DNA from: a virus
Strand: one strand, 5' to 3'
IMG/VR virus record: IMGVR_UViG_3300032288_001215
Span: 1 to 23,024 of that record
Length of the DNA stretch: 23,024 nt
Every line of letters starts with the position of its first letter. Position 1 is the stretch's first letter. The notes under the pieces are model-generated. The model was not told where the DNA came from and did not search any database. It was given only the letters and a program-made list of their open reading frames with translations. Position numbers and translations under genes: made by a program. Of the stretch, positions 12,234 through 23,024 are shown piece after piece.

Positions 12234-12395
12234 ATGTACCAAACACTAAAAAATGTAATTACTGGTGAAATAGCACCCATGATAAAACGCCTATCAGACG
12301 GAGCAACGATACCAATGGATGAACAAAATGTTGACTATCAGGAATATCTAAAATGGATTTCCGAGGGTAATCAACCGGAGCCAGCAGATGAATAA
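12234..12395 (+). CDS. Small fibre accessory protein, 53 aa
   Basis: The ORF starts 2 bases after the receptor-binding protein stop. It encodes 53 residues beginning MYQTLKNVITGE. The C-terminus (YLKWISEGNQPEPADE) matches the aromatic-W-x(4)-GN-x-P-x-PAD ending I recall from tail-fibre assembly and accessory proteins. The last 8 bases overlap the start of the HNH gene, a sign that the HNH gene was inserted at or beside this end. A near-copy of its C-terminal 19 residues reappears at 12846-12923 on the other side of the HNH gene. Function is unproven; fibre assembly or attachment is the best guess. Confidence 0.6.
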   Translation: MYQTLKNVITGEIAPMIKRLSDGATIPMDEQNVDYQEYLKWISEGNQPEPADE

Positions 12396-12849
12396 TTTGT
12401 TTGAATACAAAGATGGCAAGTTGTTATGGAAAATAAGCCGTAGCAATGCTATTGTCGTCGGGCAAGAGGCTGGAGCTAAGTACACTAGGGGTTATCGCAG
12501 GGTGTACTTTGACGGAAAGACCCATGCTGTACATCGAGTGATTTGGCAAATGTTCAATGGAAACATTCCCGATGGGATGCAGATTGACCACATTGATGGC
12601 AATCCTCTAAACAATAAGATAGAGAATTTGCGATTGGTTACAGCAGAACAAAACTCTTTGAATAGGGCTTACAAAGGAAAGACAAAAAATGTGTCTTTTT
12701 GTTCTGAAAATAATAAATACAAAGTGAGTTTGAAATCATCAGGCAAGCGAATCTTCTTTGGTTATTTTGAAGATTTTGAACTTGCAAGTTTGGTGGCAGA
12801 AGAAGCCAGACAAAAATATCATGGAATCTACGCAAGAGGTGCAGCATGA
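12388..12849 (+). CDS. HNH homing endonuclease with AP2-like DNA-binding domain
   Basis: 153 residues. Residues about 46-91 form an HNH_3-type beta-beta-alpha metal site: VHR with His49, then IDHIDG with Asp67-His68, then NPLNNKIENLRLV with conserved Asn residues. Residues about 100-148 look like the AP2-like domain often attached to phage HNH nucleases (aromatic/basic strand pattern NVSFCSENNKYKV... then YFEDFELA helix). Such genes are free-standing homing endonucleases that cut phage genomes lacking them and spread by repair. It is A/T-rich compared with neighbours. It sits between two copies of ATGAATAA (12388-12395 and 12846-12853) and between a 53-aa gene and a partial copy of that gene's end, so it looks like a recent insertion in the fibre module. 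Confidence 0.85.
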   Translation: MNNLFEYKDGKLLWKISRSNAIVVGQEAGAKYTRGYRRVYFDGKTHAVHRVIWQMFNGNIPDGMQIDHIDGNPLNNKIENLRLVTAEQNSLNRAYKGKTKNVSFCSENNKYKVSLKSSGKRIFFGYFEDFELASLVAEEARQKYHGIYARGAA

Positions 12850-18457: not shown

Positions 18458-18534
18458 ATGACACCCGCCACAAAGAACAGGGCAAAAATGACGGCCATGC
18501 CGAGCAGGAAACCGTTGAAGAAATCGTCGCTCAT
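18454..18534 (-). CDS. 26-aa membrane peptide
   Basis: ATG 18534 overlaps the recombinase stop (ATGA) and is preceded by GAGGTG with 5-base spacing. MSDDFFNGF is followed by a continuous hydrophobic helix (LLGMAVIFALFFVAGVI) to the end, so it should be a single-pass membrane peptide. Its stop overlaps the next ATG (ATGA). Overlaps on both sides and the RBS support translation despite the small size. Function is unknown. Confidence 0.6.
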   Translation of the reverse strand: MSDDFFNGFLLGMAVIFALFFVAGVI

Positions 18535-19178
18535 GCTGCACCTCGCTGGATTAGGTTGGAGACTTGGGCTGGCAGCCACTTGGTATTGCCACGGGCTGTC
18601 TGCACGCCACGGGCCTGCAGAGCGGTGGCGATTGCACGCAGGCTGGTGGCACCAGAGCGCTGGATGTCGGCGATGATGGGCATCACCTTGGCTGCGAATG
18701 CGTCAGCGTTGGCACGGCCAGCGGCTGCACCTGCGACGGCTGCTGCTTGCGGGTTTGGGTTACCCAGGCGAACGCCACGGGCCTTGGCAGCCTGCAATGC
18801 TGCCTTGGTGCGGCGGCTGATCTCCTCGCGCTCATGCTGTGCGACCACAGCGCGGATACCAAACTCAAGGGTGCCAGCGTGTGGCATATCGGCTGCAACG
18901 ATCTGCACACCAGAGTCACGCAGGGTCAGCAGGAAGGCTGCCTGGCGGCTCAGTCGGTCGATCTTGGCGATCAACAGTGCGCTGCCGGTGGCTTTGCACA
19001 TTGCGATGGCGGCGGCTAACTGTGGCCGGTCATCGTGCTTGCCTGATTCAATCTCGGTAAAGCTGTGGATGATGCTGTCAGCGTAGGCTTTGACTTGTGC
19101 CTGCTGGGCTTCGAGGCCCAGGCCTGACTGGCCCTGGCGCTCGGTGGAAACGCGGAAGTATGCGACGTAGGAGGTCAT
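18531..19178 (-). CDS. Small serine recombinase (resolvase/invertase family)
   Basis: 215 residues. The N-terminal catalytic domain starts VAYFRVSTERQG with nucleophile Ser11 and Arg9; KIDRLSR (about 72-78) is the conserved arginine loop. QHEREEISRRTKAALQAAKARG (about 114-135) is the long E helix. The C-terminal 45 residues (TSLRAIATALQARG then KWLPAQVSNLIQR) are a helix-turn-helix. The size fits resolvase/invertase enzymes rather than large phage serine integrases. It may resolve multimers, invert a segment, or act in lysogeny; no crossover site is evident. RBS GGAGG precedes the ATG by 7 bases. The position at the head of the recombination operon, close to the control region, could place its target there. 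Confidence 0.9.
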   Translation of the reverse strand: MTSYVAYFRVSTERQGQSGLGLEAQQAQVKAYADSIIHSFTEIESGKHDDRPQLAAAIAMCKATGSALLIAKIDRLSRQAAFLLTLRDSGVQIVAADMPHAGTLEFGIRAVVAQHEREEISRRTKAALQAAKARGVRLGNPNPQAAAVAGAAAGRANADAFAAKVMPIIADIQRSGATSLRAIATALQARGVQTARGNTKWLPAQVSNLIQRGAA

Positions 19179-19608: not shown

Positions 19609-19791
19609 ATGAAAGAGGGCAAGATGTTTCTAATGCGTATGCGGCCAGAGGTCAGGCAGTTGCTTGACCAGGCTGCAGCCGAGCAGCGTCGCACGCGGGT
19701 GTCGATCCTGGAGGAGCTGATTCTGGAGGCCTACGGTAAGCGGTACGAGACTACCCAGGAGCGTCTAAACAAACTGCTGGGGGATCGGTGA
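19609..19791 (+). CDS. Ribbon-helix-helix (Arc/CopG-like) transcriptional regulator
   Basis: 60 residues: KMFLMRMRPEVRQLLDQAAAE is a beta-strand (alternating FLMRMR) followed by helix A; RTRVSILEELILEAY is helix B with the typical turn. This strand-helix-helix order is that of Arc/MetJ/CopG regulators, which dimerise and insert the strand pair in the major groove. It is the first gene of the rightward operon with an operator-like site on its promoter, so autoregulation and control of the leftward promoter are likely. RBS AGGGGG lies 4 bases before the ATG. The stop overlaps the next start. Confidence 0.75.
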   Translation: MKEGKMFLMRMRPEVRQLLDQAAAEQRRTRVSILEELILEAYGKRYETTQERLNKLLGDR

Positions 19792-20261
19792 TGCGGATCA
19801 TGGACATACCCGGCCATGAGGGTCGCTATGCCGCCAGCGAGTATGGCGAAATCTGGTCGCACATCAGCAAAAAGTGGCTGAAACAATGCACCACGCCAAA
19901 CGGTTACCGAGTAGTTGGTTTGTGGAAGCCTGGCGCAAAGAATGCAAAAGCGACCTTTGTGCATCGACTAGTTGCGGAAGCGTTCCTGCCTTTTGATCCG
20001 GTAAGAAATCGGGTGAATCACATAAATGGGATTAAGGCAGATAACCGACTGGTCAACCTCGAGCGTTGCACCAGTAGCGAAAACAATCAACACGCGTATG
20101 ACGCCGGACTTAAAGCGCCTGCACACCGAAAGTTGACCCAAGAGCAGGCAAGACGTGTTCGTTATGGTGGCGAGCGCCTGAAAGATTTGTCTGCTGAGTT
20201 GGGCATGTCGATGTCTGCTCTATGCCAAGTGAGAAGCGGCGCAACCTGGAGAAATTTATGA
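19791..20261 (+). CDS. NUMOD4-HNH endonuclease with C-terminal HTH
   Basis: 156 residues from ATG 19791 (GTG 19788 is an alternative one codon earlier). Residues 5-35 (IPGHEGRYAASEYGEIWS) are the NUMOD4 module. Residues about 55-92 are the HNH_3 core: FVHRLVAEAF with His58, VNHINGIKADNRLVNLE with His77 and Asn residues. Residues about 114-150 (KLTQEQARRVRYG... LKDLSAELGMSMSALCQVRSG) are a helix-turn-helix of the type that ends many phage homing nucleases. It lies between the regulator and the resolvase-like gene in an otherwise compact operon, and may be a homing element or a phage DNA-processing nuclease. Confidence 0.88.
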   Translation: MRIMDIPGHEGRYAASEYGEIWSHISKKWLKQCTTPNGYRVVGLWKPGAKNAKATFVHRLVAEAFLPFDPVRNRVNHINGIKADNRLVNLERCTSSENNQHAYDAGLKAPAHRKLTQEQARRVRYGGERLKDLSAELGMSMSALCQVRSGATWRNL

Positions 20262-20896: not shown

Positions 20897-21164
20897 GTAC
20901 TGCCAGCACTGCGATAGGGCTCACTGGAAGCCACGCACGGTGCTGGTGGATGGTAACCAGGTCTGTACCCACAGCGAGGCGTACAGGCACGATTGCGAGG
21001 CCAGGTGGGCGCTAAAGCTGCCTGACAAGGCACGCAAACCAAAGATAACCAAGCTGGAGTACCTGGGCCTTGTCGAGCAGCAGCGAGGCTACGAGGAGCG
21101 AGTAAGGCTGCGAAATGAAATGTTAAGGAGATATAAAAGTGGAAAAACCACGGACACCAAATAA
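20877..21164 (+). CDS. Small Cys/His-rich, probably zinc-binding protein, 95 aa
   Basis: I prefer ATG 20877 (MVAAGYEYCQHCDRAHW); ATG 20820 in frame would duplicate the space of the 37-aa gene and its extra residues look unstructured. CxxC (CQHC), then HxxxxC-type residues (VCTHSEAYRHDCEARW) give a plausible zinc site. The C-terminal half is helical and basic (KARKPKITKLEY... EERVRLRNEMLRRYKSG). The start has no good RBS, so it probably depends on coupling. Function unknown; nucleic-acid binding is a guess. Confidence 0.55.
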   Translation: MVAAGYEYCQHCDRAHWKPRTVLVDGNQVCTHSEAYRHDCEARWALKLPDKARKPKITKLEYLGLVEQQRGYEERVRLRNEMLRRYKSGKTTDTK

Positions 21165-21351
21165 GTTGCTGGACACACTGATTGCGGAGCTACCAGCGAG
21201 GAACGATGCACACATTGCGGTCAAGATGAAGTGGCCACAGGGTTTTGTGAGCAAGTACCGGCACGGCCATGTCAGCTTCACATCCAACCGCATCCTCGAG
21301 CTGCACGATGCCACAGGCTGGGAGATCAGCCGGATCAAGGCGCTGCTGTGA
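21139..21351 (+). CDS. Cro/YdaS-like helix-turn-helix protein, 70 aa
   Basis: GTG start at 21139 with AAGGAG about 9 bases upstream, overlapping the previous gene by 26 bases. The sequence (LLDTLIAELPARNDAHIAVK, then QGFVSKYRHGHVSF, then ILELHDATGWEI) follows the pattern of small phage HTH proteins in which a first helix carries LLDxLI, a recognition helix carries VSKxRHG, and a final helix carries HExTG. It is probably a DNA-binding regulator of the early operon. The WPQGFV substitution in the turn, in place of a usual small-residue segment, is a slight oddity. Confidence 0.7.
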   Translation: MEKPRTPNKLLDTLIAELPARNDAHIAVKMKWPQGFVSKYRHGHVSFTSNRILELHDATGWEISRIKALL

Positions 21352-21452: not shown

Positions 21453-21601
21453 TGAACTTGAGAGAAAAGAAAAAGGAATATTTCCTACTGGGCATCTGCA
21501 TTGGTGGCATGGCTATCTGTGCGTTGTTGAACTGGCGAGATGGTGTTCATATGTGCGCTGGCGGTAGCTTCGCTGCTTTGGCGGGAGTTTTTGATGACTG
21601 A
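21452..21601 (+). CDS. Small membrane protein, 49 aa
   Basis: ATG 21452 overlaps the preceding TAA. A basic N-terminus (MNLREKKKEY) is followed by a hydrophobic segment (FLLGICIGGMAICALLNW), then a short loop and a second weakly hydrophobic segment (AGGSFAALAGVF). The positive start suggests the N-terminus stays in the cytoplasm. Not recognised. Confidence 0.55.
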   Translation: MNLREKKKEYFLLGICIGGMAICALLNWRDGVHMCAGGSFAALAGVFDD

Positions 21602-21653
21602 CCGTATAAGGAATTCGGAAAACCGTATACGGAATTCGGAGCTGGCGTTGTGA
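21594..21653 (+). CDS. Very small ORF, 19 aa, over the direct repeat
   Basis: ATG 21594 lies inside the end of the preceding gene and the TGA overlaps the next GTG start (GTGA), so it could couple translation across the repeat. It encodes MTDRIRNSENRIRNSELAL, a doubled RIRNSE unit reflecting the DNA repeat. It may simply be a leader; weakly supported. Confidence 0.25.
   Translation: MTDRIRNSENRIRNSELAL
21602..21640 (+). repeat. Tandem 18-bp direct repeat with palindromic core
   Basis: CCGTATAAGGAATTCGGA (21602-21619) and CCGTATACGGAATTCGGA (21623-21640) differ at one base and have a 21-base period. The second copy contains the perfect palindrome CCGTATACGG, and both contain GAATTC. Two helical turns apart, they could be bound by adjacent protomers of a regulator or initiator. 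Confidence 0.8.
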
Positions 21654-22399
21654 TTCACTATCACGGGTTGCCAATAACACCAGCCACAGCGGCTGTGCAG
21701 GCCATTGATGGCGGCCATGCATTTGTTAGCTTTGTGCATTCAGATCAACTGTCGATTGCGTTGGAGGTTGCGCAGTCATTTGCTTTGGATAACGGCGCAT
21801 TCTCAGCCTGGCGCAGCGGTAAGCCGGTGACTGATTGGGGTGATTACTACGAATGGATTGCCGAGTTGCACCGATACCCAGGCTTTGACTTTGCCGTGAT
21901 TCCTGACGTTATTGACGGCGACGAAGCTGCCAACGATGCGTTACTTGATGAATGGCCGTGGCGTAACTCGGCTCCTTGGGTTGGTGCGCCTGTGTGGCAT
22001 TTGCATGAGTCGCTGGAGCGTTTAGAGCGGCTTGTATTGAGCTGGCCACGTATTTGCCTGGGCAGTTCTGGCGACTACGCTGTAATTGGCACTGATGCCT
22101 GGTGGCAGCGTATGAGCCAGGCAATGGACGTTATTTGCGACCGTGCTGGCCGACCAGCGTGCAAGGTGCATGGGCTTAGGATGCTAGATCCAGCAGTGTT
22201 TTCAAAGTTTCCATTTGCCTCGGCAGACAGCACAAACATTGGCAGGAATGTCGGCATTGATAGCAAGTGGCGTGGAACCTACACGCCACCGACCAAGGAA
22301 GCTCGAGCAGCAGTCATGCGCACTAGGATTGAGGCACACCAAGCACAGGTGTTCTGGGATCGGAAGCTAAATCCTATTCAGCAGGGATTGTTTACATGA
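21650..22399 (+). CDS. TIM-barrel TGT/DpdA-like transglycosylase candidate
   Basis: 249 residues from GTG 21650. Motifs fall in the order of the TGT fold: FALDNGAFSAW (Asp47) resembles the LDSGGFQ base-binding loop; FAVIPDVIDG (Asp86) the second Asp loop; PVWHLHE and ICLGSSG the GLAVGE-like turn; CKVHGLRMLDPAVF and FASADSTNIGRN (Asp193) the region holding the nucleophile. In tRNA-guanine transglycosylases and phage DpdA these swap guanine for a 7-deazaguanine. No zinc motif is evident, as in some DpdA-type proteins. No queuosine/preQ0 synthesis gene is in the window, so any base would come from the host or genes elsewhere. The overlap with neighbours ties it to replication genes. Confidence 0.6.
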   Translation: MIHYHGLPITPATAAVQAIDGGHAFVSFVHSDQLSIALEVAQSFALDNGAFSAWRSGKPVTDWGDYYEWIAELHRYPGFDFAVIPDVIDGDEAANDALLDEWPWRNSAPWVGAPVWHLHESLERLERLVLSWPRICLGSSGDYAVIGTDAWWQRMSQAMDVICDRAGRPACKVHGLRMLDPAVFSKFPFASADSTNIGRNVGIDSKWRGTYTPPTKEARAAVMRTRIEAHQAQVFWDRKLNPIQQGLFT

Positions 22400-23024
22400 A
22401 CCCGTTACCTACAAACATTGTGGAGTTCAAGATCCCAAAGAAGCCCAGGGTCAAGGAGCGTGAGCCAGAGCCAGACCGGCGTAAGGTGGCTGTGCTGCCG
22501 ATTAAGGCTGTGTTCGACCAGAAGCTGACGCACGGTGGTTTGCAGGTCTTGGCGGCGATCTGCTCGTTTGCCAACAGGGCTGGCATCACCTGGGTGAGTC
22601 AGACCAGGCTAGCCAAAGACCTGGGGATCAGCCAGCAGGCTGTCAGCAAGCAGGTGATTCAGTTGCGAGAGCTGGGCTACCTGCAGACAGTCAAGAAGGG
22701 CTTCAAGGGCGAGAGATCGGACACCATCAGGGTGATATTTGACCCAACGATAGACACCGAGACAGCGATTGCAGTCACCAGTTCAATTGAAGACACAAGG
22801 CCACTTTATATGAAAGAGAAGCAACAGCAGGAACAGGACAACACCATCGATCCCGAAGGATTGAAACGCATCCAAGACATGATCCGAGGTGTTGTCAAAC
22901 CAATCAATGAACCAGCGAAGGAGTACGCCATGCCGAAGGGTAAAGACACCGTAACTGTTGCCAAGATGAAACAGCAAATCGCTGCCAAAAAGACAAAGAA
23001 AGAGGCTAGCAATCACAACCCTCA
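22396..23024 (+). CDS. Replication initiator-like winged-helix protein, 3' partial
   Basis: ATG 22396 overlaps the upstream stop (ATGA). About 209 residues are visible and the frame stays open at the end of the window. Residues about 33-117 form a winged helix: IKAVFDQKLTHGGLQVLAAI, then WVSQTRLAKDLGISQQAVSK as helix-turn-helix, and LRELGYLQTVKKGFKGERSD as the wing. This is the arrangement of phage replication protein O-type and RepA-like initiators. Residues about 140-205 are Gln/Lys-rich and flexible. It probably binds the origin and recruits a helicase, but the deciding C-terminal part is missing. Confidence 0.7.
   Translation, partial: MNPLPTNIVEFKIPKKPRVKEREPEPDRRKVAVLPIKAVFDQKLTHGGLQVLAAICSFANRAGITWVSQTRLAKDLGISQQAVSKQVIQLRELGYLQTVKKGFKGERSDTIRVIFDPTIDTETAIAVTSSIEDTRPLYMKEKQQQEQDNTIDPEGLKRIQDMIRGVVKPINEPAKEYAMPKGKDTVTVAKMKQQIAAKKTKKEASNHNP

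Follow-up and report, generated by a model that had tools for sequence, protein, structure and literature searches.

What would a base-exchanging transglycosylase do in a phage record that carries none of the genes for making the base it inserts? The question is raised by a gene on the plus strand, at positions 21650..22399, of an IMG/VR virus fragment that spans 23,024 bases, comes without a host genome and is referred to here, over its full length, as the window. The gene is a complete open reading frame of 249 amino acids that opens with GTG, and an RBS-like GGAG (21638-21641) followed by an 8-nt spacer and the start codon (21638..21652, plus strand) reads as a putative ribosome-binding site. 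An earlier note, made from the sequence alone, had delimited this reading frame exactly, picked out Asp47, Asp86, a GSS motif and Asp193, and assigned the product to the TGT/DpdA-like transglycosylases. The product is probably a small phage enzyme of the singleton DpdA group, a 2'-deoxy-7-deazaguanine transglycosylase that would exchange guanine in DNA for host-derived preQ0. This reading was built on sequence family, conserved residues, fold, a record in which no preQ0 genes were found, and QueC and TGT in the genomes that carry relatives.

The content of the window is podovirus-like (tail and internal virion proteins, tail fibres, endolysin, spanin, and RecT- and RecE-like genes), and megablast of the whole window matched no named phage. 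The position of the gene directly before a replication initiator, pointed out in the earlier note, was borne out: its stop codon overlaps the start of the next gene as ATGA (22396-22399), and that gene (22396..23022, plus strand), still open where the window ends, hits replication-initiation families (best E 4.5e-8) and is present as a complete copy in a near relative (L003:2297-3232). A 70-aa open reading frame of the same operon, helix-turn-helix-like by eye, lies upstream (21139..21351, plus strand) and recurs in the same arrangement in that relative (L003:1241-1453). DpdA would probably be made early, with the replication genes. Just 5' of the dpdA-like gene, at 21601-21642, are two tandem 21-nt copies, ACCGTATAAGGAATTCGGAAA and ACCGTATACGGAATTCGGAGC, the second of which contains the perfect palindrome CCGTATACGG; these are possibly an operator or a duplication. 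Elsewhere in the window, a serine-recombinase-like gene (18531-19178, minus strand; DNA invertase E 5e-31, integrase family E 8e-23) could reflect lysogeny or an invertible segment in this podovirus-like genome, and two HNH endonuclease-like reading frames (12388-12849 and 19788-20261; PHROG 99 and 59, respectively) are perhaps homing endonucleases.

The window protein matched PHROG 887 ('queuine tRNA-ribosyltransferase') at E 1.5e-72, and the same family takes the DpdAs of Seuratvirus slur01 (8.2e-96) and Pseudomonas phage MiCath (2.2e-94), both encoded within folE-queD-queC-queE clusters, those of phages 7-11 (7.1e-74) and MED16 (3e-70), and the singleton DpdAs of HK106 and SEN1. When used as a tblastn query, the protein returned 105 phage records at E<0.01, and a single IMG/VR scan yielded 490 relatives, a number that marks the singleton dpdA as a common phage gene. 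Among named phages, the closest by tblastn identity were Acinetobacter phage vB_AbaM_AB3P2 (58.5%; WOZ15013.1), whose gene likewise lies in an early region upstream of replication genes but has its end overlapped by a Vut_1/YhhQ-like transporter gene, and Salmonella phage SPN3UB (54.9%). The DpdA of Pantoea phage vB_PagS_MED16 (gp38; DpdA/TGT_1) has the same motifs and is 41.5% identical across 91% of the protein, and no preQ0 genes were found in its phage, as in the window record; however, its C-terminal third diverges and MED16 is a siphovirus of Pantoea. Similarly, Salmonella phage 7-11, of the singleton group of PMC6884629, has a lone dpdA whose product is 36.7% identical (E 1e-23), but its annotated start gives a shorter N-terminus and the phage belongs to the Grimontviridae. 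Seuratvirus-type DpdAs are more distant (approximately 28% identity, E 0.1-1), and in the tree the singletons, including the window DpdA, were split from slur01 and MiCath with 100/100 support, with the DpdAs of MED16, 7-11, SEN1 and HK106 forming a subclade separate from the window protein and most inner forks unsupported either way.

Sequence searches of Pfam, NCBIfam, PADLOC and the PDB with the window protein gave no useful match. The Pfam model PF01702, which finds TGT in all 14 control genomes, did not match in the window, a miss that does not count against DpdA, since Pfam also fails to detect other DpdAs of the family. Alignment of a shallow DpdA profile to 14 TGTs with hhalign gave nothing significant, pairing only the DNGAFS/DSGGFQ segment (E 0.07).

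Residues conserved across the family point the same way. By motif and strand order, Asp47 (codon 21788..21790, within LDNGAFS) is the putative equivalent of TGT Asp102, while Asp86 (21905..21907) is a candidate for TGT Asp156, Gly138-Ser139-Ser140 (22061..22069) would occupy the position of the TGT GG loop, and Asp193 (22226..22228) would correspond by motif to the TGT nucleophile Asp280 (all on the plus strand). These residues, together with His117, His174 (codon 22169..22171, plus strand) and Ser194, are invariant in 52 relatives spanning 45-98% identity. An alignment with the DpdA of Enterobacteria phage 9g showed D47, G90, P114, H117, G138, H174, D193 and S194 to be common to both proteins, pairing D47 with D72, H117 with H141, G138 with G162, H174 with H196, D193 with D215 and S194 with S216. 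His196 is the residue that separates DpdA from DpdA2 (PMC6884629), and its equivalent H174 is invariant in all 22 aligned sequences. Membership of DpdA2 (Vibrio phage nt-1 type), defined by lack of the His196 equivalent and by escape from detection with 9g-type DpdA, was rejected on the presence of H174; the nt-1 protein R9TGF0 itself gave only a weak structural match (E 3.4e-3). The 9g/Seuratvirus proteins thus share the PHROG (tested for slur01 and MiCath) and these residues with the window protein, but are longer (306-317 aa), are accompanied by a full folE-queD-queC-queE cluster and differ at Asp86, which aligns to Ser111 of 9g and to Ser in slur01 and MiCath. As Asp is invariant at this position among the singletons, Asp86 marks the singleton group and not DpdAs in general, and the alignment suggests that the two types may use a different base-recognition residue.

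The only cysteines of the window protein are at positions 136, 163 and 171, leaving no CxCxxC zinc motif. The earlier note had offered a new subfamily lacking zinc ligands as one of three options; this was not upheld, as the DpdAs of slur01, MiCath, 7-11, MED16 and HK106 are also without CxCxxC, making the missing motif normal for phage DpdA. Published work knows this group under two names, singleton DpdA (PMC6884629) and DpdA/TGT_1 (PMC8306585), and the window protein is an ordinary example of it and not a new subfamily.

The structure prediction that the earlier note had called for supports the same superfamily. In an AlphaFold2 model (pLDDT 83.4, pTM 0.83; poorly predicted at residues 1-7 and 195-206), the chain forms a TIM barrel whose conserved residues lie at the ends of strands or close to them, and the best 50 PDB entries by VIA-align all belonged to the TGT superfamily (Z 12.1-13.5). 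The top match was the Cap10-CdnD complex (9ntn_A; Z 13.5, 227 aa, 3.7 Å), followed closely by arcTGT 1j2b (Z 13.1, 224 aa, 4.7 Å) and 1iq8 (Z 13.0, 221 aa, 3.8 Å), with Zymomonas mobilis TGT at Z of about 12-12.8; identity in the structural alignments with TGT and arcTGT was 6-10%. Queuine tRNA-ribosyltransferases were also among the best viral structural matches. The window protein therefore resembles bacterial TGT and arcTGT in its barrel fold (Z 12-13) and catalytic motif order, but differs from them in having neither the zinc motif nor a PF01702 match. Since Cap10 and arcTGT are tied by Z, the fold does not choose among DNA, tRNA and protein as substrate. Ranking by Foldseek E-value was ambiguous, placing dehydroquinase and TrpA TIM barrels first at approximately 1e-3; these identities were rejected, being outside the best matches by Z and without a sequence family link.

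The earlier note saw no QueC, QueD, QueE or FolE homologue in the window, and this was confirmed: Pfam models for PTPS/QueD, Vut_1, FolE (GTP cyclohydrolase I) and radical-SAM found none in the 23 kb record, and tblastn with phage QueC sequences found no QueC. Nor did PTPS, Vut_1, FolE or radical-SAM matches appear in the contig from which L003 derives, which is 98% identical and reaches approximately 8 kb further downstream, and preQ0 genes are likely absent from the whole phage of which the window is a fragment. Among related virus records, tblastn with phage Que proteins detected no preQ0 genes near the relatives but missed divergent QueD-like genes found by clustering, and profile searches were therefore used instead. 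With these, QueC exceeded the family cut-off in 0 of 50 related records, being found only in the slur01 control, and neither FolE nor radical-SAM turned up in the window or the other related records, slur01 again serving as the control.

Close relatives of the gene occur in 14 bacterial genomes, including Janthinobacterium, Roseateles, Duganella, Achromobacter, Pseudomonas and Acinetobacter, and these genomes encode TGT in 14 of 14 cases and QueC in 13 of 14, a frequency that agrees with supply of preQ0 by the host but discriminates weakly because host Q genes are common in Proteobacteria. In the one genome lacking QueC the TGT frame is also broken, which may reflect poor assembly. Of the three options in the earlier note, use of host preQ0 is the best supported, with a precedent in 9g: dpdA alone in E. 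coli produces dPreQ0 from the host pool at 0.03-0.3% of G, and dpdA together with gat-queC works without TGT in E. coli.

Relatives of the window protein are accompanied by modified DNA at comparable levels. LC-MS of virion DNA detected dADG at approximately 0.13% of G in MED16 (PMC8306585) and approximately 0.02% of G in 7-11 (PMC6884629), both phages without preQ0 genes, and the dPreQ0 level obtained with 9g dpdA is similar. Such low levels match the output of 9g dpdA when its own Gat-QueC is missing. In MED16 and 7-11, DpdA and dADG are connected by correlation. The published rates correspond to a computed 9-33 dADG per genome in these two phages; site-specific modification was considered as an explanation and set aside, as precursor limitation is simpler given the similar level reached by 9g dpdA on the host pool. 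For the window DpdA, the proposed mechanism is that Asp193 would attack the glycosidic bond of guanosine in DNA and Asp47, acting as general acid/base, would assist the release of guanine, whose place would be taken by a free 7-deazaguanine, in the likeliest case preQ0. With no genes for preQ0 synthesis found in the phage record, the host would supply the precursor through its queuosine pathway. Evasion of host nucleases is the putative benefit; dADG at 0.02-0.13% of G looks too low for broad restriction protection, and most enzymes tested cut MED16 DNA (PMC8306585). What singleton DpdAs gain and how their precursor is supplied are questions raised in both PMC6884629 and PMC8306585.

The fold is equally compatible with other substrates, and the option in the earlier note that the enzyme acts on tRNA, which would change the Q modification of the host during infection, has several points in its favour: the model fits arcTGT and TGT no worse than any other structure, Asp86 is kept as in TGT and unlike 9g DpdA, and databases name the family queuine tRNA-ribosyltransferase. 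It is nevertheless improbable, as the window protein has no C-terminal zinc motif, PF01702 is silent in the window while positive in every control genome, the relatives in MED16 and 7-11 belong to phages with 7-deazaguanine in their DNA, 9g dpdA failed to rescue an E. coli tgt deletion (PMC6884629), and the genomes carrying relatives already own a TGT. Less probable again is that the gene is vestigial, encoding a catalytically dead DpdA kept for another reason, as might be suggested by a genome fragment without synthesis genes and by Mycobacterium phage Orion, which has a singleton dpdA and no modification (PMC6884629). However, every candidate catalytic residue is invariant in the 52 relatives, and comparison with the nearest relatives (L002 and L003, 98% protein identity) gave 53.5 synonymous against 8.5 nonsynonymous differences (dN/dS 0.036), indicating strong purifying selection. 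Moreover, the host of Orion is without preQ0 synthesis, unlike the genomes with relatives of the window gene.

The least probable of these readings, and a very unlikely one, is a protein-modifying enzyme of the transglycosylase fold resembling CBASS Cap10, which could add a tag to a host or phage protein or remove one. Cap10 and NDG act in protein conjugation, with Cap10 binding a protein N-terminus tagged with 7-amido-7-deazaguanine (PMC11996544), and Cap10-CdnD was the top structural match. Its Z of 13.5 over 227 residues is, however, tied with the 13.1 of arcTGT, sequence searches linked the protein to neither Cap10 nor any PDB chain, a Cap9/QueC-like partner exceeded the cut-off in none of the related virus records, and both the sequence family and the DpdA residues indicate DpdA. 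A singleton DpdA working on DNA with host preQ0 thus remains the preferred reading.

The part that may be new lies in the neighbourhoods of the relatives. Approximately one fifth of related loci have an adjacent lone QueD/PTPS-like or YhhQ-like gene, never with QueC or FolE in the records searched. Clustering of neighbour genes identified the QueD/PTPS-like gene at 14 loci (5 groups at 70% identity; 65.6 bits against PF01242, cut-off 22.4) and the Vut_1/YhhQ-like gene at 11 loci (4 groups), in each case with at most one small gene between it and the dpdA-like gene. In whole-record searches, PTPS was found in 14 records and Vut_1 in 12 (control excluded), with both in 0. The PTPS-like gene lies directly upstream of the dpdA-like gene in L047, L048, L051-L053, L090, L129, L131, L134-L136, L138 and L147, and directly downstream in L167; its product keeps the HGH and LDH motifs, and the catalytic Cys of slur01 QueD is replaced mostly by Ser or by another residue. 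The Vut_1/YhhQ-like gene, from a family of preQ0 transporters, is offset from the dpdA-like start by +719 in L082, by -470 in L070/L071 and by +698 to +976 in L154, L164, L166, L168, L169 and L172-L174. Some phages are known to encode YhhQ, without correlation to any group (PMC6884629), and within the limited literature consulted no published report of either gene adjacent to a singleton dpdA was found. It is conceivable, if rather unlikely, that singleton DpdAs are served by a one-gene accessory (the QueD/PTPS-like protein without its usual Cys, or the YhhQ-like protein) supplying or altering the 7-deazaguanine base by an undescribed route, or have a main target other than bulk phage DNA, such as specific sites, tRNA or protein. 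Relatives of the window DpdA offer a natural comparison between no accessory gene, a lone QueD-like gene and a lone transporter.

In approximately 11 relatives (L006, L010, L031, L095, L096, L130, L157, L158, L162, L168 and L173), a further gene, encoding a PAPS-reductase-like N-type ATP pyrophosphatase, lies no more than 6 kb from the dpdA-like gene, and genes akin to it may be the source of weak, sub-cut-off QueC matches in other records.
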